In this document: piece after piece, positions 9,073-21,522 of the stretch | Numbering within the stretch: position 1 is the first letter of the stretch | How the letters are laid out: each line of letters opens with the position of its first letter | Assembly: GCF_037076465.1 (NCBI RefSeq) | Contig: NZ_AP028908.1 | Location: forward strand, 1,054,001-1,118,000 | Length of the DNA stretch: 64,000 nucleotides | Source: Pectobacterium araliae | Lineage (GTDB): Bacteria > Pseudomonadota > Gammaproteobacteria > Enterobacterales > Enterobacteriaceae | Direction: 5' to 3' | Notes under the pieces: model-generated | Database searches by the model: none | The model's input: the letters and a program-made list of their open reading frames with translations, nothing else | Told to the model about the DNA's origin: nothing | Translations under genes and position numbers: made by a program

Positions 9073-11637
9073 TTAGAGCATTTTCTTTAGCTGATACAAC
9101 CAATCCAGCGCTTGACGTGGCGTGAGTGCATCGGGATCGATAGCCTCCAGCGCTTCAATCGCCGGTGATGGCTCATCATTACTCAGTAATGCCAGCTGCG
9201 CGCCATCGATATGGCTGGATGACGCATTATTCGATAACGTTTCCAGCTCTTTCAGCTTCTGACGAGCACGTTTAATCACTTCTTTTGGTACACCCGCCAG
9301 TGCGGCGACGGCTAAACCGTAACTTTTGCTGGCTGCACCGTCCTGTACGCTGTGCATGAAGGCGATGGTATCGCCGTGCTCGCGGGCATCTAAATGGACA
9401 TTCACCACGCCTTCCATTTTTTCCGGCAGAGTGGTGAGTTCAAAGTAGTGCGTGGCAAACAGCGTCATTGCTTTGATGCGATTCGCCAGATTCTCGGCAC
9501 AGGCCCATGCCAACGACAGGCCGTCATAGGTTGAGGTGCCGCGTCCGATTTCGTCCATCAGTACCAGACTGTTTTCCGTGGCGTTGTGCAGGATATTCGC
9601 CGTTTCCGTCATTTCCACCATGAAGGTGGAACGGCCAGAGGCCAGATCGTCTGCGGCACCTACGCGAGTGAAAATGCGATCGACAGGGCCAATGACCGCT
9701 TGATCCGCTGGCACAAAGCAGCCGATATGCGCCATCAGCACGATGAGTGCGGCCTGACGCATATAGGTACTTTTGCCCCCCATGTTGGGGCCGGTAATGA
9801 TCAGCATACGACGCTGTGGCGATAGCGACAGAGGGTTTGAAATAAACGGTTCACGAAGCACCTGTTCGACGACGGGGTGACGGCCGCCTGCGATTTTGAT
9901 GCCGGGCTTATCACTCAACGTCGGGCAGACGTAATTCAGCGTATCGGCACGTTCAGCCAGATTAGTGAGGGCGTCCAGTTCGGCCAACGCGGCTGCACTT
10001 TGCTGAAGCTCGGCTAAATGAGGCAGCAGCAGATCGAAAAGCTCATCGTAAAGTGCTTTTTCCAGCGCCAGCGCTTTGCCCTTCGAGGTCAGAACTTTGT
10101 CTTCGTACTCTTTCAGCTCGGGAATGATATAGCGTTCGGCATTTTTCAGCGTCTGTCGGCGGACATAGTGGATCGGCACCAGATGGCTTTGACCACGGCT
10201 GACCTGAATGTAATAACCGTGCACACCATTGAAGCCGACTTTCAGCGTATCGAGTCCCAGCTTTTCACGTTCACGAATTTCCAGTCGGTCCAGATAATCG
10301 CTGGCACCGTCAGCCAGCGCGCGCCACTCATCCAGTTCTGCATGGTAGCCCGGTGCGATGACCCCACCGTCACGTACCAACACGGGTGGCGCTTCGACAA
10401 CGGCGCGTTCCAATAAATCACGTAGCTCATCAAATTGCCCGATCAGGCTGACCAGACGACGAACGGAGTCGGTTTCCAGTGGCGCAAGCTGTTCGCGAAT
10501 ATCGGGAAATTGTTGGAAAGCATGGCGCATACGTGCCAGATCGCGTGGACGTGCTGTGCGCAACGCGAGTCTTGCCAGAATACGTTCCAGATCGCCGACC
10601 TGTCGCAGATAGGGTTGCAGGTCTGGTGTGATATCCTGCAACGCGCTGATAGCCTGCTGACGCTGTTTGAGCGCCTCAATATCGCGGCTGGGCATATGAA
10701 TCCAGCGCTTCAGCATTCGGCTGCCCATTGCCGTTACGGTGCAGTCCAGCACGGCAGCCAGCGTATTTTCTACACTACCGGACAGGTTCTGCGTCAGTTC
10801 AAGGTTACGGCGCGTGGCCGCATCCATAATGATGCCATCCTGTTGGCGCTCCATCGTAATACCACGAATATGCGGCAGTGATGTGCGCTGAGTATCTTTC
10901 GCGTATTGCAGTAGGCATCCAGCGGATCGTAGCGCGAGTTTTGCCTGCTCTACGCCAAAACCGGTCAGATCACGAGTGCCAAATTGCAGGTTTAGCTGCT
11001 GACGCGCGGTATCGGGTTCAAATTCCCACAGCGGACGACGGCGAAGCCCATGACGATTTTCGATCAAATCCATGGACTCAAAGGATTCAGGGTAGAGTAA
11101 TTCCGCTGGGTTAGTGCGCTGCAATTCGGCCGCCATGGTTTCGCGATCGGCGGGTTCACTGACGCGAAAGCGTCCTGAGCTGATATCCAGAGTGGCATAA
11201 CCGAACCCCCGACTATCCTGCCAGATCGCTGCCAACAGGTTATCCTGCTTTTCCTGCAACAACGCTTCATCGCTGATGGTTCCCGGCGTAACAATGCGTA
11301 CGACTTTGCGTTCTACCGGACCTTTGCTGGTGGCGGGATCGCCGATCTGTTCGCAGATAGCGACGGATTCACCCATTTGTACCAGTCTGGCAAGGTAGTT
11401 CTCGACGGCATGATGCGGAACGCCGGCCATCGGAATCGGTTCCCCTGCCGAAGCGCCGCGTTTCGTCAGCGAAATATCCAGCAGTTGAGAGGCTCGTTTG
11501 GCATCGTCATAGAACAGCTCGTAAAAATCGCCCATGCGATAAAACAGCAGGATTTCTGGATGTTCAGCCTTTAGCCTAAAGTACTGTTGCATCATCGGCG
11601 TATGGGCAGTGAAGTCCTTCTCTGTGGCTTCATTCAT
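9073..11637 (-). CDS. mutS: DNA mismatch repair protein MutS
   Basis: ATPase that recognises mismatches and small loops and starts methyl-directed repair with MutL and MutH. From the ATG at 11637 the product is 854 residues, matching the family; the 21 extra upstream residues in the open frame are not conserved. Domains in order: mismatch-binding domain with [18 protein letters not shown] (the Phe-x-Glu mismatch wedge), connector, lever and clamp, then the ATPase with Walker [10 protein letters not shown], Walker [17 protein letters not shown] and the C-terminal helix-turn-helix. The gene is intact, but its first 18-19 codons and upstream region are duplicated about 2.8 kb away (14414-14742), bounding an inserted accessory segment. 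Confidence 0.97.
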
Positions 11638-11910
11638 ATTGATTTTACTCAGTCTTAACGCTTTTGTTCGCTCAGGTGTAGCGCAGAGGTGGATGGTCAA
11701 CCTTACTGATGGTTCGTTACCTGAGCATTGAAATGGGATGCCAGAAGTATACTGGCTGGCAGATGAAAAACATCACCTGCGCGTGCGCTATCTTACCATT
11801 GATAGCTGTTATTTGACGTCAAAGCGACGTTACCAGACTGAGACAAGGATGCGCATCCGATTTTTCCACTATTGCTCAAGTACGCGAGGCGGTTCGCAAG
11901 TTTGCCTGAA
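11582..11910. repeat. 329 bp direct repeat, copy 1 (mutS 5' end plus upstream)
   Basis: This segment reappears at 14414-14742 at a constant offset of 2,832 bp, with only four substitutions noticed by eye (near 11587, and near the CTTACTGATGG, ACTGGCTGG and GCAAGTTT stretches) and no gap. It contains the first codons of mutS, the mutS start region and about 270 bp of upstream DNA. Weaker similarity seems to continue about 80 bp further. The two copies enclose the hcp/small-gene block. Confidence 0.93.
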
Positions 11911-12063
11911 GAGGTATAAGGTCAATAAAACGAAGATGAATACAATCTGGAAGCAATCAATGTTATTGAGCTTATAATGGGTGACATTTTTGCCTAATGC
12001 CGCAGTCAATCATAGGGTAAGATTGCAGTAGTAAAAGAACAACCAATCAAGGGAATGGATTGA

Positions 12064-12439
12064 ATGGATAAAAGAGCACTACTCTTAAAATCAGGGAACT
12101 ACTTCGCCTGAAAAATAATTATGTCTATGTCAAATGCGATGGTTTTAAATTTAATACCCCAGCGAAGAAAGCTGAATCCTTTACAGACTATGTTTTTATC
12201 GTTACTCGTTTATGCTGGAAAGCAATGTATCTTCCTGTCTTCATGAGTCTATTTTTTTTTCTATTTATGATTTTTATAAAAATGGGAATGTGGTTGCAAG
12301 TATAACAGTATTTTTTATTCTTTTTTCTATAATTTCTTTTTTCGTATTAAAGGTTGAGAGTAATTATTATAATGTACGCATGATCACGATTGTAAGGATA
12401 ATTAAATTTAGATTGATGTTGTTTGTATTTTCATTATAG
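12064..12439 (+). pseudogene. Degraded gene for a small membrane protein
   Basis: No single frame covers this stretch, but three overlapping frames look like parts of one protein. An ATG at 12064 with AAGGGA upstream begins MDKRALLLK; a one-base shift at the A4 run near 12090 continues as IRELLRLKNNYVYVKCDGFK followed by a hydrophobic stretch; a second shift at the T9 run at 12252-12260 leads to FSIYDFYKNGNVVASITVFF and another hydrophobic segment, ending at 12439. The alternative is a stand-alone 75-residue protein starting at the ATG at 12212, but that start has no visible ribosome-binding site. The final segment vaguely recalls a PqiA-type membrane domain; this is a weak impression only. 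Base composition is strongly AT-rich, unlike the flanking core genes. Confidence 0.4.
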
Positions 12440-12453
12440 ATAATGAATGGTTT

Positions 12454-12681
12454 TTATGTAATTTTCTTGACTATTAATTTAGTTGTTAACCATGAGAAAA
12501 ACAGTGCTATCAATACAAGAAAGATAATTAATGAATCTAAAGATGAGTCTATTATGTGAAATGGGTTGGTTAATTTTGCAACAAATAAGTAAGTTTTTTC
12601 AGGTAAGTAATTAAATACCATTTCGAATAAAAAAATTATGTATAGAATGCTAATTATTATAAATAAAATTATTTTTTTCAC
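12454..12681 (-). CDS. Small two-helix membrane protein, unknown
   Basis: A 75-residue protein starting at a GTG (12681) preceded by AGAAGGGG four bases upstream. Residues 2-24 (KKIILFIIISILYIIFLF, in part) and about 50-68 (LIIFLVLIALFFSWL) are hydrophobic enough to span the inner membrane, leaving a loop that contains KTYLFVAKLTNPFHIIDS. I do not recognise the family. It runs convergent to the degraded gene on its left and divergent from the small-gene cluster on its right, and has the same orientation as the broken hcp gene at 13661-14138. A small membrane protein in an hcp-linked island could be an immunity protein against a membrane- or envelope-acting effector, but nothing in the sequence proves this. 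Confidence 0.55.
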   Translation of the reverse strand: MKKIILFIIISILYIIFLFEMVFNYLPEKTYLFVAKLTNPFHIIDSSLDSLIIFLVLIALFFSWLTTKLIVKKIT

Positions 12682-12764
12682 GTTACCCCTTCTTCTTATT
12701 TCTATCCATGTGATGTATCATTTTAAGCAAAAGGATTTTAAAGTCAAATTTTATGAGGTGTAGG

Positions 12765-13275
12765 ATGAACATTGCTTATCTGAAACAAAAAATGCAGGCA
12801 GACCGAATTATTGCTCTAAAAATCGAGAATGCGCTTGTGGAAATTAATCAGGATCTCAGGGAAACTGCGGACACTTTATATTCTGGCGTAGAAAGAGCAA
12901 GCTGGTATGGCTCTTGTCTTTTCGATGATTATAAAGATGTTTGTAAGCAGTTAATGACAGAAGATTACAGGATGCTTATTGCTGTTAAGCAAGTGTATCT
13001 AAGAGATGATGTTGTTCTTGATATGGTTGAGCTTTTTTTTAAAAAAAACTAAGAAGAATAAGTGAGGAAAAACAAAATAGTATTTTACAGGAAGTCGAAA
13101 AAAAATCTGCCGAATACGCCTCGGTTAAATTCAGTAAATTGTCCCTTGCCTATGTTCTGGCAAAAATAGTAAGAATGTCGAAAGATTTTAATGATTCCCA
13201 TACCAAAATTATTAATAAAAGTAGTCTGGCTGTTGTGCAGGTGGGAAGTTTTATGGAAAAATACAAAAAGCAGTA
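12765..13275 (+). CDS. Unknown protein in two frames joined at a slippery A AAA AAC site
   Basis: The first part starts at the ATG at 12765 (GTAGG and GAGGTG upstream) and gives 95 residues, MNIAYLKQKMQADRI to MVELFFKKN, ending at the TAA at 13050-13052. Directly after, in the -1 frame, about 74 further residues run without a start codon near their beginning: RRISEEKQNSILQEVEKKSA to GSFMEKYKKQ, ending at 13275. The junction is T8A8C, where zero-frame codons AAA AAC TAA fit the heptamer A AAA AAC. A -1 slip would give a continuous helical protein of about 170 residues with charged, coiled-coil-like character. Either programmed frameshifting or a one-base indel in a homopolymer explains this. 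The second part's TAA overlaps the next start (TAATG). I recognise no family. Confidence 0.55.
13043..13049 (+). promoter_or_regulatory. Candidate -1 ribosomal slippery heptamer A AAA AAC
   Basis: The heptamer lies in the correct phase (zero-frame codons AAA at 13044 and AAC at 13047) immediately before a TAA stop. After a -1 slip the reading continues into an open frame to 13275. It is followed by an A/G-rich stretch; I see no clear downstream stem-loop or upstream Shine-Dalgarno stimulator. Confidence 0.35.
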
Positions 13276-13458
13276 ATGGCAGCAAGGCGATTAAAAAACA
13301 TAGAGCCAGAATATTATTGGGAATTATATAATGAAAAAATAGAGTTATTATATTTTTTAATTGATCCTGAAATGTCAAAGATAATATATATGACCAATTC
13401 AGGTTCTTATAATGAAGAAGATGTTGTTTATTTATTAAATCAGGTTTTAAGAAAATGA
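13276..13458 (+). CDS. Small unknown protein
   Basis: A 60-residue protein, MAARRLKNIEPEYYWELYNE to VVYLLNQVLRK, acidic overall with many aromatic residues and no membrane segment. Its ATG overlaps the TAA of the preceding frame (TAATG), and its TGA overlaps the ATG of the next gene (ATGA), so the three frames form a tightly coupled unit. No close family comes to mind. The linked arrangement with a membrane protein downstream and an hcp gene nearby is the kind seen for effector, chaperone or immunity sets, but no residue pattern shows a specific activity. Confidence 0.6.
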   Translation: MAARRLKNIEPEYYWELYNEKIELLYFLIDPEMSKIIYMTNSGSYNEEDVVYLLNQVLRK

Positions 13459-13631
13459 AATGGATTATTGAATGGCTTGGCCAGTCTTTTTTTTATCTTG
13501 TACCTATTGCTGCCATCGTTCTGGGTGGCATTTTTTTTGTTAGTTTTTTCCCAAACTATGGTTTCTACCTTACCGTTGTATGGGTATTCATTGTGATTTT
13601 TTTATATGTGAAATATTCTAAATGGTATTGA
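13455..13631 (+). CDS. Small two-helix membrane protein (58 aa), unknown
   Basis: The ATG at 13455 overlaps the stop of the previous gene by four bases (ATGA). The 58-residue product starts MKWIIEWLGQSFFYLVPIAA and has two hydrophobic segments, about residues 12-32 and 38-52, separated by a short PNYG turn, ending YVKYSKWY at the TGA at 13629-13631. Such hairpin membrane proteins commonly act as small subunits, toxins or immunity factors; the sequence gives no further clue. It is the last gene of the small cluster, about 30 bp from the end of the converging hcp pseudogene. Confidence 0.6.
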   Translation: MKWIIEWLGQSFFYLVPIAAIVLGGIFFVSFFPNYGFYLTVVWVFIVIFLYVKYSKWY

Positions 13632-13660
13632 TAGTATTTAGAATATTTCACGGTTAACTG

Positions 13661-14138
13661 TTAATATTTTACTGCTTCCCATAAAATGTATGAACTGGTT
13701 CTTGCTACCACATGTTCCCACTCTATAGATGCGAATTTGAAAGAGACACTTTCGTGAGGTTGAACCTCATTATGTGTTAATGAATTTGGATAATGAAATT
13801 GTATACCTGTGATAACCGCATCTCTCAGCACCATTTTAAAATAGAGTTCGTTACTACCGGATTGTGACGTTCTGTAAAAAGGAATTCACAGGTTAATTTT
13901 TCGTTATCGCTTAATGCCTGTCAATAAGTGGAGTAGATTTATCTATTGGCTTTCTTATTTCAACTGGATACAATGAAACATTATCTTGTCTTGTTATCTG
14001 GTTCATTAATTCATAAACAAAAATTTCGTCTTCATGGGAAACCTGATATTTATTACCAATCGAGTCTGCACTTGAACAACCTGCAGAGATCAGACCTTGT
14101 TTGATGCCGGTGAGTTTCAGATAGATTAAATTTGCCAT
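13661..14138 (-). pseudogene. hcp: Type VI secretion Hcp protein, two frameshifts
   Basis: Hcp forms the hexameric inner tube of the type VI secretion system and can carry effectors. The first 70 residues (MANLIYLKLTGIKQGLISAG, then IGNKYQVSHEDEIFVYELMN and PVEIRKPIDKSTPL) are a clear Hcp family N-terminus, with AAGGAG seven bases before the ATG at 14138. The frame then breaks near 13917; a shifted frame gives LSDNEKLTCEFLF, a second break at the T5 run near 13879 follows, and a third frame reads YRTSQSGSNELYFKM, ITGIQFHYPNSLTHNEVQPH and ASIEWEHVVARTSSYILWEA before a TAA at 13661. Restoring one base at each break gives about 159 residues, the normal Hcp length. So the gene is almost complete but carries two single-base deletions. 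No other type VI core gene is in the window. Confidence 0.85.
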
Positions 14139-14413
14139 TATTTACTCCTTAATGTTGTCCATAATCGCACCATAAATCCTTTTTCCTTATGGGAGAGGTA
14201 ATTTCTGCATTTTTTAGTCAATGAGTCAATAGCGGTTATCGTGCAATGTGTATGATTTCAAATGGTTATTCGGATTATAATTATCGTAAAAATTATTGAT
14301 ATTTTATTTATTTTAGTGGTAGGGAAAGTCGAAAATGTATTCCATTGGTATACTAAAAACCAGTCATTAAAAATTTATCCTATATTTATCAATGAGTAAT
14401 ATATAAAAATCAA
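14139..14413. other. AT-rich non-coding stretch upstream of hcp
   Basis: About 275 bp between the hcp start and the second mutS-derived repeat. It is very AT-rich, holds no convincing frame, and presumably contains the hcp promoter; I do not see a clear consensus element in it. Confidence 0.5.
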
Positions 14414-14742
14414 TACTGCTGCATCATCGGCGTATGGGCAGTGAAGTCCTTCTCTGTGGCTTCATTCATATTGATTTTACTCAGTCTTAACGCTTTTGTT
14501 CGCTCAGGTGTAGCGCAGAGGTGGATGGTCAACCTTATTGATGGTTCGTTACCTGAGCATTGAAATGGGATGCCAGAAGTATACTGACTGGCAGATGAAA
14601 AACATCACCTGCGCGTGCGCTATCTTACCATTGATAGCTGTTATTTGACGTCAAAGCGACGTTACCAGACTGAGACAAGGATGCGCATCCGATTTTTCCA
14701 CTATTGCTCAAGTACGCGAGGCGGTTCGCAAATTTGCCTGAA
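14414..14742. repeat. 329 bp direct repeat, copy 2 (truncated mutS 5' end)
   Basis: This copy carries the first 18-19 codons of mutS, reading leftwards, the start region and the mutS upstream DNA, but the gene is cut off at 14414 next to AT-rich island DNA. It is about 99% identical to 11582-11910 by eye. The open frame at 14615-14836 inside it is an accident of the repeat, since its counterpart in copy 1 begins the same way and diverges. Confidence 0.93.
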
Positions 14743-14844
14743 GGGTTATGTCAATAAAGCGAAGGTTGGATGTAATCGGGGATCAATCGATGCTGTTGAG
14801 CTGATCGATAGCATATATTCTTTTTTGATGGGTTGAAATAAAAT

Positions 14845-14877
14845 GAAAAACTATCCCCCTTAGGTGTGAAGAGGGAT
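14845..14877 (-). terminator. Terminator of the dioxygenase operon
   Basis: Read on the minus strand, ATCCCTCTT (14869-14877) pairs with AAGGGGGAT (14853-14861, one G-T pair) and is followed by AGTTTTT. It lies 17 bp after the stop of the LysE-type gene. Confidence 0.65.
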
Positions 14878-14893
14878 GTATTTCCTATTTCGA

Positions 14894-15481
14894 TTAAATC
14901 CATAAAAATACAATTGCAATTAATAGTAAAATACCAAATATTTTATCTTGGTTTTTATTTAAAAAGCTCCCACTGTTTTTTATGATAATTTCACTTGAGT
15001 AACTCCATAGAAGATGAGATAACATATTACACAACGTTATGATTATAGCTAACATTATACCATAACGATAATCTTCCGCTTGCTTGGAAAAAAGTGAGTA
15101 TATCGTTATGATTATAGCAATGTTTTTAGGATTGATTGCTTGTGCAAAAACACCATGAACGAAACCACTTTTGATATTTTCTTTCTTTTTTACTGAGCTA
15201 TCTGCTCTGATCATGCTTATTGCTAAGTAGAGCATATAAATACTACCAAGAATTTTTGCGAGCAAAGATAAACTCTCAAATTTACTTAACATTTCCTCTG
15301 CGCCGATTGCAATGATAAGCGAGTAAACGAAGGGTAATACCTGAAGCCCAGCAATGAACTTTAGCGTTTTCTTAAAACCTTGAACAGAGGCAATACTCAG
15401 GCAAAGGATATTTGTTGGGCCTGGAGATAAAGCTAAAGGCAAATTAACGAGTAAAGCACTGATTATGAATTTTATATCCAT
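14894..15481 (-). CDS. LysE/RhtB-family amino-acid exporter
   Basis: A 195-residue inner-membrane protein with about six hydrophobic segments. The N-terminal stretch NLPLALSPGPTNILCLSIAS contains the PGPT motif typical of the LysE/RhtB translocator family, whose members export amino acids and related compounds by proton exchange. It is the last gene of a three-gene minus-strand operon; its ATG overlaps the stop of the dehydrogenase gene by one base (TAATG). The context suggests that it exports a hydroxylated or oxidised amino acid made by the two upstream enzymes. The substrate is an inference. The gene is AT-rich compared with mutS and fec on either side, which suggests acquisition by transfer. 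Confidence 0.85.
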   Translation of the reverse strand: MDIKFIISALLVNLPLALSPGPTNILCLSIASVQGFKKTLKFIAGLQVLPFVYSLIIAIGAEEMLSKFESLSLLAKILGSIYMLYLAISMIRADSSVKKKENIKSGFVHGVFAQAINPKNIAIIITIYSLFSKQAEDYRYGIMLAIIITLCNMLSHLLWSYSSEIIIKNSGSFLNKNQDKIFGILLLIAIVFLWI

Positions 15482-16185
15482 TATATGTCCTTAAATGCGG
15501 TCCATCCACCATCAACGAAAAGTGTACTTCCAGTTATAAATGATGCTTTGTTTGATAATAAAAACTTAATGGCTTCAGAAACCTCGCCAACTTCCCCTGT
15601 TCTTTTCATTATATGATTGTTGTTCACTTTCTCCATTAATTTATGATCTTGGTAATAATCATTGGTCAATGGTGTTTTAATAACACCAGGAGCGACTGAG
15701 TTAACCCTTATTTCTGAAGGTGAAAGCTCAATAGCTAAACATTTAGTTAAACCAATTAAGGCATGTTTGCTTGCTACATAAGCACTTCTGTTTGGCTCAC
15801 CTAATACACCAGATACCGATGAGATATTTACAATGCTACTTTTTTTATTCAAGTTATACCGACATGTTTTTGCTGCTAAAAAAAAGGAATCCACATTGAT
15901 ACTGAACACTTTTTTCCATTCAGTATAGGATAATTCATCCAGAGAGCATATTTCCCTGACCCCTGCACAATAGACTAATCCATCAAAGATATGGTCGCTT
16001 ATCTTTCTCTTAATCAGGGAGGGTATTGCTTCTGGATTACCTAGGTCAAGTTCGAAAAAATCAACTTTATCATTAGATGGTTTAATCCTATCAAAAACTA
16101 AAACAGAGAATCCTTCTATTAGTAGATCTTCGGCGACTTTTTCACCAATTCCGCTACTGCCGCCAAACACAATGAATTTCTTCAT
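15481..16185 (-). CDS. Short-chain dehydrogenase/reductase
   Basis: A 234-residue classical SDR enzyme. The dinucleotide-binding motif GGSSGIGEKVA is at residues 9-19, an NAG-type motif is represented by YCAGVRE, the catalytic Ser is in NISSVSGV, and the YxxxK pair is in SAYVASKHALIG; the C-terminal ITGSTLFVDGGW is the usual SDR end. It starts inside the end of the dioxygenase gene (ATGA overlap of four bases) and runs directly into the exporter, so the three are surely co-translated. By analogy with the Bacillus isoleucine dioxygenase operon, where an SDR oxidises 4-hydroxyisoleucine to the keto amino acid, this one may oxidise the hydroxyl made by the upstream enzyme. That role is inferred from context. 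Confidence 0.87.
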   Translation of the reverse strand: MKKFIVFGGSSGIGEKVAEDLLIEGFSVLVFDRIKPSNDKVDFFELDLGNPEAIPSLIKRKISDHIFDGLVYCAGVREICSLDELSYTEWKKVFSINVDSFFLAAKTCRYNLNKKSSIVNISSVSGVLGEPNRSAYVASKHALIGLTKCLAIELSPSEIRVNSVAPGVIKTPLTNDYYQDHKLMEKVNNNHIMKRTGEVGEVSEAIKFLLSNKASFITGSTLFVDGGWTAFKDI

Positions 16186-16850
16186 TTTTTTTGCACCTTA
16201 CTTTCTAAGGTAACCAATAAAATATCTCGGTAAGACGTGCTGTTTTGTTGAGTACATCCTAATGGTGTGACAGCATGGAAAAATTCTTTTGTCAGTACAA
16301 TAGTGTCCATAAATGTAGATAAACTCTTTACTATATTAATAGATTTTCCATCCTTTGATATAATGGAGTCTCCACCAACAGCGTTATCTGATTTAGATAG
16401 AAAGTGTAAAAAAACTAAATCTTCATCATCTTTATGTAACCATAACGGTGAGCTGTATGATGGGTGTTTTTCAGTTGCGACATATCTGATGGGATGCACA
16501 CCTATATCAAACTGGTTCAATTTTGTTTTGTTTATAATGTAGTCTACATCAGTTAATAATGTTTTTTTAAATAGCTCATTATTAGTTATTTCATCGGGGA
16601 TATCGATGAAGTCTCTGTTTTTTCCCCCATCCACATTATTAGAGTCATAAGTTTGAAAATATGTTGAGTTATTACTTTTGACTAACCCTTTTTTTGCTGT
16701 GAATGTATATCTTCTATATGCTCTTTTTCTTATTTTTTCATTTGCGTAGGGGTCAAATTCCAATTTGTCATACATTTCTCTAAATGTTTGTTCTTGAAGT
16801 GTTTTAGATGAGAATTGTGCGCCTTCAATGAAAATATTATCCAGTAACAT
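16182..16850 (-). CDS. 2-oxoglutarate/Fe(II) dioxygenase, isoleucine-dioxygenase-like
   Basis: A 222-residue protein of the 2OG-Fe dioxygenase family that contains free amino-acid hydroxylases such as L-isoleucine dioxygenase. The metal triad is visible: His139 and Asp141 in LWLHKDDEDLVFLHFL and His192 in EFFHAVTPLG, with Arg208 in STSYRDILLVTLE placed to bind 2-oxoglutarate. The NAVGGDSIIS segment after the HxD pair is a hallmark of this family. It heads the operon with an SDR enzyme and a LysE exporter, the same functional set as known hydroxyisoleucine operons. The ATG at 16850 is preceded by AGGGA. The amino-acid substrate cannot be read from the sequence: isoleucine, leucine or another aliphatic residue are the likely candidates. 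Confidence 0.8.
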   Translation of the reverse strand: MLLDNIFIEGAQFSSKTLQEQTFREMYDKLEFDPYANEKIRKRAYRRYTFTAKKGLVKSNNSTYFQTYDSNNVDGGKNRDFIDIPDEITNNELFKKTLLTDVDYIINKTKLNQFDIGVHPIRYVATEKHPSYSSPLWLHKDDEDLVFLHFLSKSDNAVGGDSIISKDGKSINIVKSLSTFMDTIVLTKEFFHAVTPLGCTQQNSTSYRDILLVTLESKVQKK

Positions 16851-17448
16851 AGAATGTCCCTATTATTTTTACCTGTTTAGTATTTTATATCCGTTATACT
16901 TAACGTTGCCTGTGCGTTGGCGGCGTTAGTAACTCGATTCATCCCATCCATAAGCCTCGCCCCGTTGGGGCGGCTGCAAGCAGCGTTCAAATCTGCTCCC
17001 AGCAGATTTTTCACCCAAATAACTTATATGAGTAAACGCACTGGGACTCTTTCTTTTGCCATCTTCCTGAAACTCGAATTATTTAGAGTATAAATTATTT
17101 AATGTAAGAGGTAATTGACTGAGAAACAAAGTTAAATGTTTTCTTGTTATATGTAAAGTATTTGTTGTTTTTTTTATTGTAATTATTCTGATGAACATCA
17201 TAAATACATTGCTAATCCATTTATTGCGTGAAGCTGTAACGATATGGTGTTATTTACTAGCAAGTGAAATATTACCATGGTTATTATTTATGGAAGGGGA
17301 TTAATATTCTGGTGACATTTTTTGCACTGCCTTTGGGGCCAATTTTCCGTATTCCTTCATCACTTTAGGTAACACCTTACCAAAGGCTGTTGTAAGTATC
17401 CTTGTGAGACGAAACGTTTACTTTTAGAGACTTCCAGCGGAGAACGCT
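16851..17448. other. Non-coding gap upstream of the dioxygenase operon
   Basis: About 600 bp without a gene I can support. The left part should hold the promoter of the minus-strand operon. It contains two nearby palindromes (listed separately) and AT-rich DNA; the last 120 bp before 17449 may be decayed transposase or flanking sequence, which I cannot resolve by eye. Confidence 0.5.
16954..17011. repeat. Double-hairpin element
   Basis: Two adjacent inverted repeats: GCCCC-GTT-GGGGC (16959-16971) and the perfect 9-bp stem AAATCTGCT-CCC-AGCAGATTT (16989-17009), the latter followed by extra T. It looks like part of a dispersed enterobacterial repeat, or a plus-strand terminator with no gene to serve. 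No second copy was seen in this window. Confidence 0.5.
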
Positions 17449-17664
17449 ATGCTAAAACTGAATTTTCGCCACAAGGGAAAGCAACGTTTGCCAGTGCGTA
17501 ATTCAGCCCCGTTGGTGATACCGGAACAACTGAGTCAGAGTGAGTCAGTAGATTTTATGCATGATGTGACACTGGAATTGATTAAACCGAGCAAGCCAAT
17601 GCGGAATACGTTTATCGAATGTTGTAACCGGACGTACCGAACAGAAATGCTGGCTGATGGCTGA
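17449..17664 (+). pseudogene. IS3-family transposase OrfB, internally deleted fragment
   Basis: The 71-residue frame joins two separate parts of an IS3-family integrase-type transposase. LKLNFRHKGKQRLPVRNSAP, followed by PEQLSQSESVDFMHDV, matches the region before and at the first catalytic Asp; then ELIKPSKPMRNTFIECCNRTY, in which the usual FIERFNRTYRTE is altered, matches the region around the third acidic residue. The roughly 100 residues between them, including the second catalytic Asp, are missing and the C-terminus is cut off. It cannot transpose. It marks past insertion and deletion between the dioxygenase operon and the fec genes. Confidence 0.8.
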
Positions 17665-17666
17665 AC

Positions 17667-17693
17667 ACGCGAGGCGGTTCGCAAGTTTGCCTG
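17667..17693. repeat. 27 bp motif, third copy
   Basis: ACGCGAGGCGGTTCGCAAGT plus TTGCCTG is identical to 11882-11908 and one base different from 14714-14740, where it forms the distal end of the two mutS-linked repeats. Here it directly follows the transposase fragment, with unrelated flanks. A short GCGA/TCGC stem lies in it. It may be a remnant of the same duplicated block or a recombination or insertion target. Confidence 0.7.
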
Positions 17694-17891: not shown

Positions 17892-18659
17892 TCACCGCAC
17901 CACACACATCGGCTGACCTGATACCGGCTCGGGGTGAATCTCCGCATCAATGCTGAATACCTGTTGCAGCAGCTCTGGTTTCATCACCTCGTGCGGTGGC
18001 CCTTGTGCTATCACGCGTCCACCTGCCAGCATGACCAAATGATCGCAGTAGCGGCTGGCCTGATTCAAATCGTGCAAGACGGTTACCACTGTTTTGTCGG
18101 CCTGATTCAGTTCGCGCAGCAGTTTCATTAATTCGACCTGATGATTGATGTCGAGATAGGTGGTGGGTTCATCGAGCAGTACGACGGGGGTATCCTGCGC
18201 CACCAGCATTGCCAGAAACGCGCGCTGGCGCTGTCCGCCGGACAAGTCGGTTAACCGTCTTTCTGCCAGATCGACAATGTGTGTTTTCTCCATCGCGAGC
18301 TGCACGCGCTGACGATCGTCCTGTGATAACCGTCCCCATAGCGATAGCCAAGGGCTGCGCCCGTAGGCCACCATGTCACGTACGGTGATCCCCTCTGGCG
18401 TGAGGTGATGCTGTGGTAACAAGGCCAGATGGAGCGAGAGTTGGCGGGCGGAGAATGTAGAGAGCCGTTTGCCATCGAGCAGAATAGTGCCGGACTCTGG
18501 AGTAAGCAGCTTGGCGAAACACTTGAGCAGCGTTGACTTACCGCACCCGTTAGGGCCGATCAGGGCGGTGATTTTTCCGCTAGGCAGTGATAACGACAGG
18601 CTATCAAGAATACGCTTGTCGCCATAGCCTGCCGTCAGATTTTGTGTTGTCAGTTCCAT
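17892..18659 (-). CDS. fecE: Ferric citrate ABC transporter ATP-binding protein
   Basis: ATPase that drives inner-membrane import of ferric citrate. The 255 residues align throughout with E. coli FecE: Walker A GPNGCGKST, the Q-loop region LLPQHHLTPEGITV, signature LSGGQRQRAFLAM, Walker B VVLLDEPTTYLD and the C-terminal IHPEPVSGQPMC. The ATG directly abuts the fecD stop. It is the last gene of fecABCDE; directly downstream are a gene fragment and a transposase remnant that probably mark the right edge of the acquired segment in transcription order. No clear terminator follows. Confidence 0.95.
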   Translation of the reverse strand: MELTTQNLTAGYGDKRILDSLSLSLPSGKITALIGPNGCGKSTLLKCFAKLLTPESGTILLDGKRLSTFSARQLSLHLALLPQHHLTPEGITVRDMVAYGRSPWLSLWGRLSQDDRQRVQLAMEKTHIVDLAERRLTDLSGGQRQRAFLAMLVAQDTPVVLLDEPTTYLDINHQVELMKLLRELNQADKTVVTVLHDLNQASRYCDHLVMLAGGRVIAQGPPHEVMKPELLQQVFSIDAEIHPEPVSGQPMCVVR

Positions 18660-19616
18660 TTAGCGCATTCTCATAAGAAACCAGAAAAACCAAGGTGCAC
18701 CGATAATCGCGGTGAGCACCCCAGCGGGTAATTCCATCGGCGGGTTCAGCGTGCGTGCCAGCAGATCGGCAAGGAGTAGCACCAGCGCACCGGCAACGGC
18801 AGAAGTAGGAAGAAGCCAGCGGTGCTGTCCTCCCACCAGATAGCGGATCAGATGCGGTACAACGAGGCTGATAAAGCCAATGGGTCCGCAGACGGCTACG
18901 CTGGTCGCGGCGAGTGCCACGGCGAGCGCCAATCCCCAGAATTGAATACGCCTGATATTGACGCCCAGCGTGCTGGCGCGGTCGTCGCCCAATGCTAATA
19001 AATCCAGATCGCGGCAAAAGCGCAAGCTGAGCGGAATCAGTATACAGAGAACAGGCAGTGCGACCATGACGAATGACCAGTCGCGTCCCCATAGGCTACC
19101 CGTCAGCCACAGCAGCGCATTGTTGATATCCTGCGGCCGGGAGAGGATCAGATAGTCAGTGATGCTTGCCCAGGTGGCGGACAGCGCCACGCCGATGAGC
19201 GCGAGCCGCATCGGGGATGATGCTCCCGCGATAAGCCGAAGCAGCAGTCCGGCGAGGCCGCCGATGAACGCGAGAAGCGGTAACCAGAGCACAGGCAGCG
19301 CTGGCACCAGCATCAGCGCACCGACGGTCGTCAGACTTGCCGCATGGTTCACGCCGAGAATATCCGGTGAGGCCAGCGGGTTACGCACAATCCCTTGTAC
19401 CAGTACGCCGGAAATTGCGAGTGCTGCACCGACGAACAGCGCCAGCAGCACGCGAGGTAAGCGATACTGTGTCAGCACATAATGATGTTCATTGGCGTTG
19501 TGCCAGCCGTTTATCAATGCTGACCACGGTAGCGGAATCGCGCCCATACGTAGTGACAGAATGCTGGTGGTGAGTAACATCAGCGTGATCGAAATAAATA
19601 CCGTGATGGGGCGCAT
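18660..19616 (-). CDS. fecD: Ferric citrate ABC transporter permease FecD
   Basis: Inner-membrane permease of 318 residues of the FecCD family, partner of FecC. It has the many hydrophobic helices of the family and the conserved segments NPLASPDILGVNHAASL and GPIGFISLVVPHLIRYLVG, the latter being the cytoplasmic loop that contacts the ATPase. Its start overlaps the fecC stop by one base (TAATG) and its stop abuts fecE, so the three transport genes are translationally coupled. The match to E. coli FecD order and size makes the assignment secure. Confidence 0.94.
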   Translation of the reverse strand: MRPITVFISITLMLLTTSILSLRMGAIPLPWSALINGWHNANEHHYVLTQYRLPRVLLALFVGAALAISGVLVQGIVRNPLASPDILGVNHAASLTTVGALMLVPALPVLWLPLLAFIGGLAGLLLRLIAGASSPMRLALIGVALSATWASITDYLILSRPQDINNALLWLTGSLWGRDWSFVMVALPVLCILIPLSLRFCRDLDLLALGDDRASTLGVNIRRIQFWGLALAVALAATSVAVCGPIGFISLVVPHLIRYLVGGQHRWLLPTSAVAGALVLLLADLLARTLNPPMELPAGVLTAIIGAPWFFWFLMRMR

Positions 19617-20611
19617 TATCCTCGTTTCCTTGCCAGCCAGACAAAACAGGGCGCACCGATGAGCGCCAGCACGGCACCAGCAGGGAGTTCACCCGGCCAG
19701 GCAAGCGCACGGGCAAGCAGATCGGCCAATAGCATAAATGCCGCCCCCATCAACATACTCATCGGGAGCATCTTTCTTTGGTCGTAACCGATCCAGAAAC
19801 GCGCCAGATGCGGTATTAACAGGCCGATAAACGCCACCGGACCCGCTACGCTCACGCAGGCTCCCACCAGTATCAGTACCGCCAGATTGAGGATCAGACG
19901 CAGACGGCCTAAGTTGACGCCCAGCGTATGGGCACTCGCGTCACCGATGTTCAGCAGGTTAAGCTGGTTCGCCATCATCAGCACAACGGGGCAGACGATG
20001 ATGACAAACGGGAAGAGTTGCCAGAATTCCACCCAGCGCGCGTGGGAGACACCACCCGCCAGCCAGTAAAAAATGCCATAGGCGTGATCTTCCGCCAGCA
20101 GGAGCGTAATCCGCGTTAAGGCCATGCACAAGGCAGATAGCGCGACGCCAGCCAGAATCAGTCGATTGCGGTCAAGCGTTTGTCGCCAGCCACCGCCCGC
20201 TGCCATCACCATTAGCCAGCAGAGTCCGCCGCCGATAGCGGCAACAAACGCAATGGGGTAGCCGGAGAGTGAAGACGTGAAGGCGCTGGTCAGCGCCATC
20301 GCCAGCGCTGCACCGCTGTTGATGCCGAGCAGGGAAGGAGAAGCTAGCGGATTATGGGTCAGGGTCTGAAGCAGAGCGCCGGACAGCGCCAAACTAGCGC
20401 CGATCAATACGGCAACCAGACTGCGTGGCAGGCGCAGATTGAGCACTAATGCCTCTGGGAGTGAAGACGGCGATCCTGTAATCAGCGCCTTGATGGCACT
20501 GAGTGCGGGAATGGGAATGGCGGAATAACAGAACAGGCTGAGCCAGAATACGCCCAGCAGTGCCGCTATCGGCAATCCCCAATGCCAGAGCGGGTAGAAA
20601 TTTCCCCTCAT
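19616..20611 (-). CDS. fecC: Ferric citrate ABC transporter permease FecC
   Basis: First of the two permeases (331 residues). The family motif NPLASPSLLGINSGAALAMA and the ATPase-contact loop GPVAFIGLLIPHLARFWIG are present among about ten hydrophobic segments. Its ATG overlaps the end of fecB by four bases. FecC and FecD form the heterodimeric channel for ferric citrate delivered by FecB. Nothing unusual was seen. Confidence 0.94.
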   Translation of the reverse strand: MRGNFYPLWHWGLPIAALLGVFWLSLFCYSAIPIPALSAIKALITGSPSSLPEALVLNLRLPRSLVAVLIGASLALSGALLQTLTHNPLASPSLLGINSGAALAMALTSAFTSSLSGYPIAFVAAIGGGLCWLMVMAAGGGWRQTLDRNRLILAGVALSALCMALTRITLLLAEDHAYGIFYWLAGGVSHARWVEFWQLFPFVIIVCPVVLMMANQLNLLNIGDASAHTLGVNLGRLRLILNLAVLILVGACVSVAGPVAFIGLLIPHLARFWIGYDQRKMLPMSMLMGAAFMLLADLLARALAWPGELPAGAVLALIGAPCFVWLARKRG

Positions 20612-21522
20612 TGCTCGCTGTTGATGCTAACGGGCTGATGTTTAAAAATTTTCACCGTATCGCTGCCAATGCGCTCCGCTGCAAAGATACCGCGCATCCG
20701 CGCCCAGGCGTTACTGTCGACGGCGGCAATCTGCTGTTTTTGCTGTGCTTCCAGCATGTTCCAGAGCGCATCCTGCTGCCAGCGTTTCACAATACTTTCT
20801 TCGCGATAGTGCGTCACAATCAGCCACTGTGGGCTAATCGCCAGCAGTTGTTCCAGATTGATGGAGGCCATGGGGGCATTGTTGATGGGTTTCGGCACGC
20901 TCAGGCCGAGGGCAGCCAGCACGCTGCCGGTGTAAGCCTCGTTGGAATACAGGTTAAACTGCTGTTCGCGCGAGGTACCAAAAGCGACGCTTGTGCCTTT
21001 GGGAAGCTGATCGGCGTAGGCTTTCATTGTCTCGCGATGCTGGGCGAGGCGGGTCTGCATCGCACTGTCTTTCCCCAGCACCTTGCCGATGATCTCCGCC
21101 GAATGCAGGTTCTCTTCATAGGTTTCGTTACGTGATTTCAGCAGCAGTACTGGCGCGATCGCCTTCAGCGCCGTGTAAATACCGCTATGGCGGCTGCTGT
21201 CGGCGATAATCAAATCAGGCTTCAGTGCGCTGAGGGCTTCTAGACTCGGCTGCGCGCGTGTTCCCACGGAGTGCCAGGGTTTTAGGTGTTCACGGACTTC
21301 CGCCAAAATCCGCTCAGGATCGTTGTCATCGGCGATACCGACTGGGCTGACGTCTATCGCGGCCAGCGCATCGGCAAAAGAAAGTTCCAGCACGACAATG
21401 CGCTGAGGCGGCGTGTCGAGTGTAAAGGAACCCTGTTCATCCTGCACCGTTACGGCATGGGCGCGACCCAGTCCGAACAGACAAAGTGTGGTAATCAGTA
21501 CAACGCGAAGTAGAGCAAACAT
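20608..21522 (-). CDS. fecB: Periplasmic ferric citrate-binding protein
   Basis: Substrate-binding protein, 304 residues, with a Sec signal peptide ending near GRAHA (residue 23). The mature part has the family segments RIVVLELSFADALAAIDV, KPDLIIADSSRHSGIY, VAFGTSREQQFNL and YREESIVKRWQQD, all shared with E. coli FecB. It follows fecA after a 75-bp gap containing a strong stem-loop, which may lower expression of fecBCDE relative to the abundant receptor. It overlaps fecC by four bases. Confidence 0.95.
   Translation of the reverse strand: MFALLRVVLITTLCLFGLGRAHAVTVQDEQGSFTLDTPPQRIVVLELSFADALAAIDVSPVGIADDNDPERILAEVREHLKPWHSVGTRAQPSLEALSALKPDLIIADSSRHSGIYTALKAIAPVLLLKSRNETYEENLHSAEIIGKVLGKDSAMQTRLAQHRETMKAYADQLPKGTSVAFGTSREQQFNLYSNEAYTGSVLAALGLSVPKPINNAPMASINLEQLLAISPQWLIVTHYREESIVKRWQQDALWNMLEAQQKQQIAAVDSNAWARMRGIFAAERIGSDTVKIFKHQPVSINSEQ

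Follow-up and report, generated by a model that had tools for sequence, protein, structure and literature searches.

A LysE-linked dioxygenase–dehydrogenase operon in Pectobacterium araliae with the active-site residues of isoleucine-hydroxylating systems

Layout of the operon

We analysed a compact three-gene operon in a 64,000-nucleotide (nt) stretch of the Pectobacterium araliae genome (contig NZ_AP028908.1, positions 1,054,001 to 1,118,000; hereafter the window). The genes are predicted to encode a 2-oxoglutarate (2OG)/Fe(II) dioxygenase related to L-isoleucine dioxygenase (IDO), a short-chain dehydrogenase/reductase (SDR) and a membrane exporter, and lie in that order on the minus strand:

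16182–16850, minus strand: 2OG/Fe(II) dioxygenase gene of family PF10014, 222 amino acids (aa), with an H139–D141–H192 triad; on the IDO side of the tree
15481–16185, minus strand: SDR dehydrogenase gene, 234 aa; closest solved relative 4-hydroxyisoleucine dehydrogenase
14894–15481, minus strand: gene for a LysE-superfamily membrane protein, predicted exporter, 195 aa; a discrete subfamily

The dioxygenase and SDR genes overlap by 4 nt (ATGA), the SDR and LysE genes by 1 nt (TAATG). GC content is 33.2% in the operon versus 51.8% in the window as a whole. The initial annotation had proposed these coordinates and overlaps, the HKD...H triad, an SDR, a LysE-type exporter and an AT-rich accessory setting. 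All of this was reproduced: the products score above cut-off for PF10014, PF13561 and PF01810, respectively, and the sites occupied differ between genomes.

The dioxygenase retains the amino-acid anchors of IDO

The dioxygenase matches PF10014 with an E value of 4.4e-40 (137.9 bits against a Pfam gathering cut-off of 23.1) and has the iron triad as H139-x-D141...H192. Its closest characterised relative is the Bacillus thuringiensis IDO, to which the structure-based alignment foreseen in the initial annotation also matched it. Tyr123, Ser133, Pro135 and Arg208 correspond to IDO Tyr143, Ser153, Pro155 and Arg227, such that all the amino-acid anchors are retained along with the iron triad. These anchors are present in all 27 aligned sequences of the IDO/HilB free-amino-acid subgroup; among 44 PF10014 sequences outside it, none has the equivalent of IDO Tyr143 or Ser153 (1 sequence was unscorable for the Tyr and 2 for the Ser). 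The Streptomyces proteins HrmJ and BelL, which have the PF10014 fold, are only about 20% identical to the Pectobacterium enzyme, and HrmJ (9dqp) has isoleucine and proline at the positions of IDO Tyr143 and Ser153. Trees place the dioxygenase on the IDO side and HilB on the other. The best NCBIfam model is that of HilB (NF042428), at 141 bits, below its cut-off of 350. Better matches to protein- or lipid-modifying oxygenases, which the initial annotation had named as the outcome that would count against it, were looked for; among the matches listed, such hits were far weaker than IDO, and we rejected that identity.

The dehydrogenase has the substrate site of 4-hydroxyisoleucine dehydrogenase

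The SDR matches PF13561 (E value of 6.8e-52), with PF00106 also above cut-off in Pfam, and its top two sequence matches in the PDB (among the best 60 of 631) are structures of 4-hydroxyisoleucine dehydrogenase (HILDH), 5gwr and 5gwt. SDR residues Arg77, Ser123, Arg133, Tyr136, Lys140 and Tyr177 are equivalent to HILDH Arg88, Ser137, Arg147, Tyr150, Lys154 and Tyr191. HILDH Arg88, Arg147 and Tyr191 recognize the substrate carboxylate, their alanine mutants having 4, 32 and 6% activity (PMC5651801). The three substrate residues and the catalytic Ser, Tyr and Lys are present in 13 of 13 aligned cassette, HilC and HILDH sequences. As a control, 20 other PF13561 SDRs of the source genome have the equivalents of Arg88, Arg147 and Tyr191 in 0, 2 and 0 cases, respectively; since these residues are nearly absent from the controls, a generic FabG-like SDR is unlikely. 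The predicted catalytic classes of the enzymes in the operon are well supported.

The exporter belongs to a discrete LysE subfamily

The third protein matches PF01810 (LysE) with an E value of 7.9e-18 (65.1 bits against a gathering cut-off of 25.6). It shares this family with the RhtB/LysE exporters (RhtB, RhtC, LeuE and the cysteine/O-acetylserine transporter) but, unlike them, falls below every NCBIfam cut-off listed, the best being the RhtB family TIGR00949 with 60.9 of 183.95 bits. Its subfamily is discrete: 13 relatives are at least 64% identical (three of them partial), and the next relative is 32% identical. Among 25 Pectobacterium genomes, close copies of the exporter are found only in the two that have the cassette dioxygenase. 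We considered whether the exporter is strictly private to the set; this is weakened by an orphan copy in a genome of the wider family, discussed below.

Comparison with known operons

The IDO operon of B. thuringiensis consists of the IDO hydroxylase, a 4-hydroxyisoleucine dehydrogenase/2-amino-3-methyl-4-ketopentanoate (AMKP) reductase and the exporter RhtA (PMC3684760). The Pectobacterium operon has the same hydroxylase–dehydrogenase–exporter logic, and IDO and HILDH are its closest characterized relatives, with their active-site residues retained, which bears out the parallel drawn in the initial annotation. It was also right that the exporters differ in family: the Pectobacterium third gene belongs to the LysE superfamily (PF01810) rather than being RhtA. 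Unlike the IDO operon, moreover, the set resides in a Gram-negative host, its genes overlap, and it occupies an AT-rich unit at varying sites.

The initial annotation also mentioned related hydroxylases in Pantoea. The Hil operon, with the core hilR-hilP-hilA-hilB-hilC, is found in Pantoea, Rahnella and Pseudomonas; hilA-hilB-hilC also occurs in P. punjabense (L012). Here too a PF10014 dioxygenase is followed by a HilC-type SDR with identical substrate residues. Unlike the Hil operon, the Pectobacterium unit has no hilR or hilP, its genome has no detectable hilA, and its dioxygenase, below the HilB cut-off and on the other side of the tree, is accompanied by its own LysE exporter. With P. punjabense HilA as query, no homologue was found at an E value of 0.001 in the source genome (G000) or in Pectobacterium sp. 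A5351 (G021). On these grounds we rejected a HilB equivalog and membership of the Hil operon.

Besides an IDO-side dioxygenase and an EamA exporter, two operons from two other families of the order (L093, 2110–6664; L094, 5708–10171) encode a biosynthetic IlvA and a protein weakly similar to the arginine hydroxylase GntB. This IlvA is a second copy in its genome, with weaker-scoring regulatory domains, and the operons possibly make a dedicated isoleucine-derived product.

Recurrence and spread of the set

The same gene order and overlaps are found in Pectobacterium sp. A5351 (L065; amino-acid identities of 85, 88 and 93%, L013) and in Erwinia phyllosphaerae (L001; 59, 61 and 71%). A contig of an Erwinia metagenome-assembled genome (MAG; L002) has the same order, with the genes in frameshifted pieces. 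Ratios of nonsynonymous to synonymous substitution (dN/dS) between the two Pectobacterium copies, computed with an in-house Nei–Gojobori script, are 0.106 for the dioxygenase, 0.079 for the SDR and 0.058 for the LysE protein; these copies are under purifying selection. Against L001, synonymous sites were saturated and no ratio was obtained. Chance adjacency can be rejected: counting the window, three genomes share both the order and the overlaps, a fourth shares the order, and the dN/dS values point the same way.

The dioxygenase has few close relatives: a word-limited single-sequence search against 5.8 billion sequences returned 13 proteins, and scanning about 85,000 species genomes for a pattern yielded 11 loci. 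Two of these loci, both from Erwinia, contain all three genes, eight have hilA-hilB-hilC, and one, at a contig edge (L008), hilB-hilC. A search of plasmids turned up 10 records, all of them distant PF10014 relatives below 60% identity. PF10014 occurs in three of the 25 Pectobacterium genomes: two with the LysE set, and P. punjabense (G018) with a Hil-type hilA-hilB-hilC set (L012/L066), so the genus has two distinct sets of such chemistry. E. phyllosphaerae CMYE1 carries both a LysE set (L001) and a Hil-like set (L011) in one genome, which argues for a difference in role between the two.

Each of the four copies lies in different genomic surroundings, that of the window near mutS. The A5351 neighbours are genes we take, by eye, to be for methionine salvage; the E. 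phyllosphaerae copy is next to a presumably PmbA-like gene, and the Erwinia MAG copy is beside genes we assume to be Fhu-like. The operon is apparently moving horizontally.

The insertion site

The operon is flanked by mutS (open reading frame (ORF) 9073–11700) on one side and a binding-protein/FecCD/ABC transporter set (17892–21522) on the other. Additional features of this interval are:

14741–17666, unstranded: 2.9-kb operon-bearing unit, with 27-nt direct repeats at both edges
11882–11908, plus strand: 27-nt direct repeat, copy 1, upstream of mutS
14714–14740, plus strand: 27-nt direct repeat, copy 2, one mismatch, left edge of the unit
17667–17693, plus strand: 27-nt direct repeat, copy 3, right edge of the unit
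14853–14877, minus strand: terminator-like hairpin with a T-rich tail, about 17 nt beyond the exporter stop codon, from a consensus scan only
16851–16935, minus strand: 5' block common to the A5351 copy by homology, presumed to bear the promoter

Homology with A5351 spans 14868–16935, that is the genes and about 85 nt upstream, plus 57 nt at 17131–17187. The upstream regions of the four copies, when aligned, have little in common beyond the two Pectobacterium copies. The consensus scan gave 6 terminator-like sites in the region versus 1.7 in shuffles. Sigma-70-like sites between 14600 and 17500 numbered 12 versus 12.6 in shuffles, with none lying 5' of the dioxygenase gene in the same orientation. 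The 2.9-kb unit has no ORF of at least 100 aa other than the three operon genes.

The 27-nt sequence occurs three times in the source genome and once, with at most three mismatches, in 12 of 24 other genomes of the genus. Its distance from the mutS match is at most 0.4 kb in nine of these, about 2 kb in two, and 16 kb in G010, where it lies by the transporter. G017 has two diverged copies, at 4 and 5 mismatches, while a single one, at 4 mismatches, is present in P. punjabense. There the left flank joins the right flank directly, and an additional 0.6 kb follows further right. Across 14 genomes of the genus with both markers on one contig, the mutS–transporter interval ranges from 1.2 kb (P. 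punjabense) to 33 kb (G002), and is 6.3 kb in the source genome and 17 kb in G010; it looks like an insertion hotspot. We considered the repeats as recombinase attachment (att) sites but do not favour this, there being no integrase-sized ORF inside the unit.

Adjoining the operon unit is a 2.8-kb unit (11909–14713; 32% GC) with a truncated Hcp at 13911–14138 (TIGR03344 above cut-off); those of its small ORFs that were scanned had no family hit above cut-off. The far end of this unit carries a second copy of a 268-nt stretch located upstream of mutS (11650–11917 and 14482–14749, 98%). Directly beside the third 27-nt repeat, ORF 17449–17664 looks like the C terminus of an IS3-type transposase, scoring just below the PF13683 cut-off.

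Proposed pathway and alternatives

We propose that the three proteins act in series, and put the probability of this at roughly 60%. The dioxygenase would hydroxylate free L-isoleucine at C-4, giving 4-hydroxyisoleucine; the SDR, which would run in the oxidizing direction, would convert the 4-hydroxy group to a keto group, yielding AMKP or a closely related keto amino acid; and the LysE-family protein would export this product. The substrate of the first step is probably isoleucine, with leucine, a norvaline-like compound or an already hydroxylated isoleucine as further possibilities. The exporter presumably carries the operon's product, and its release may then slow competitors that depend on their own synthesis of branched-chain amino acids and methionine. 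AMKP is described as inhibitory in minimal medium only, and Met, Val, Leu and Ile presumably relieve the effect (PMC3684760).

Several points weigh against this pathway. Identity of the dioxygenase to IDO depends on the method and is just 32–35% in structure alignments, reaching 41% by BLASTP to a Bacillus cereus copy of IDO (P0079). Leucine, norvaline and norleucine are IDO substrates too (PMC10180240), and the pocket residues examined, which contact the amino and carboxyl groups, alone do not discriminate isoleucine among aliphatic amino acids. HilB, which bears identical anchors, naturally acts on 4'-hydroxyisoleucine (PMC3684760). The SDR tree gives the cassette its own branch rather than grouping it with HILDH. 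Neither a promoter nor a regulator was identified for the operon. Besides the window, the operon context is known from just two intact loci and one frameshifted locus, and five metagenomic relatives (P0003 and P0005–P0008) are known as proteins only. Finally, G135, a 2.7-Mb genome of the wider family, has an intact exporter gene (L101, 7172–7759; 72% identity to that of the window) with no adjacent dioxygenase or SDR; among 392 genomes it is outside the 54 positives for PF10014 and the five for the dioxygenase. Two readings fit this copy, a remnant or an orphan immunity gene; its presence weakens a strict linkage of exporter and enzymes and agrees with a protective pump.

The strongest alternative, which we judge unlikely, has leucine, norvaline, threonine or methionine, in place of isoleucine, as the aliphatic amino acid that is hydroxylated, oxidized and exported. 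PF10014 enzymes active on leucine and threonine are known (PMC3684760; PMC8948231) and IDO itself is permissive; however, both the nearest characterized dioxygenase and the SDR are isoleucine-type, and the IlvA beside two IDO-side dioxygenases elsewhere adds support for isoleucine. Moreover, an Agrobacterium vitis PF10014 protein lacks the Tyr/Ser pair, and this species has a threonine-active member, perhaps a different protein.

It is quite improbable that the product is instead a signal or an insect- or plant-directed molecule, the exported hydroxy amino acid lactonizing to furanones or an acyl-lactone-like signal whose level the SDR tunes. Smirnov et al. put forward such a role for isoleucine hydroxylated at C-4 (PMC3684760), and the named hosts of the cassette are Pectobacterium and Erwinia. 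Yet the unit, with no further ORF of at least 100 aa, has no HilD-like ligase or regulator, and the SDR retains the full HILDH substrate site, pointing to a keto product. Least probable of all is a HilB-like second step on isoleucine pre-hydroxylated by another enzyme, for although the anchors and the best NCBIfam model are those of HilB, the score is far under cut-off, the dioxygenase is on the IDO side of the trees and no hilA homologue was found in either Pectobacterium genome searched.

Significance

The IDO-type logic of hydroxylation, oxidation and export is already known in kind. What is new relative to known systems is the exchange of exporter family in a Gram-negative, self-contained set with signs of horizontal movement and no detectable hilA. 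A literature search listed no account of the operon in Pectobacterium, in line with the initial annotation, and did not link small secreted amino-acid antimetabolites to the genus. More tentatively, and with less than even odds, the set may be an isoleucine-antimetabolite operon of a third lineage, separate from those of IDO and Hil: a mobile, self-contained 2-kb weapon-and-pump cassette of plant-associated Enterobacterales with which soft-rot bacteria starve prototrophic neighbours by means of a keto-isoleucine, the lone pump of a non-producer such as G135 serving as immunity. If the proposed pathway is correct, a genus that causes soft rot of crops would secrete a small amino-acid antimetabolite, and isoleucine 4-hydroxylation would have been joined to unrelated exporters more than once, travelling as a compact set.
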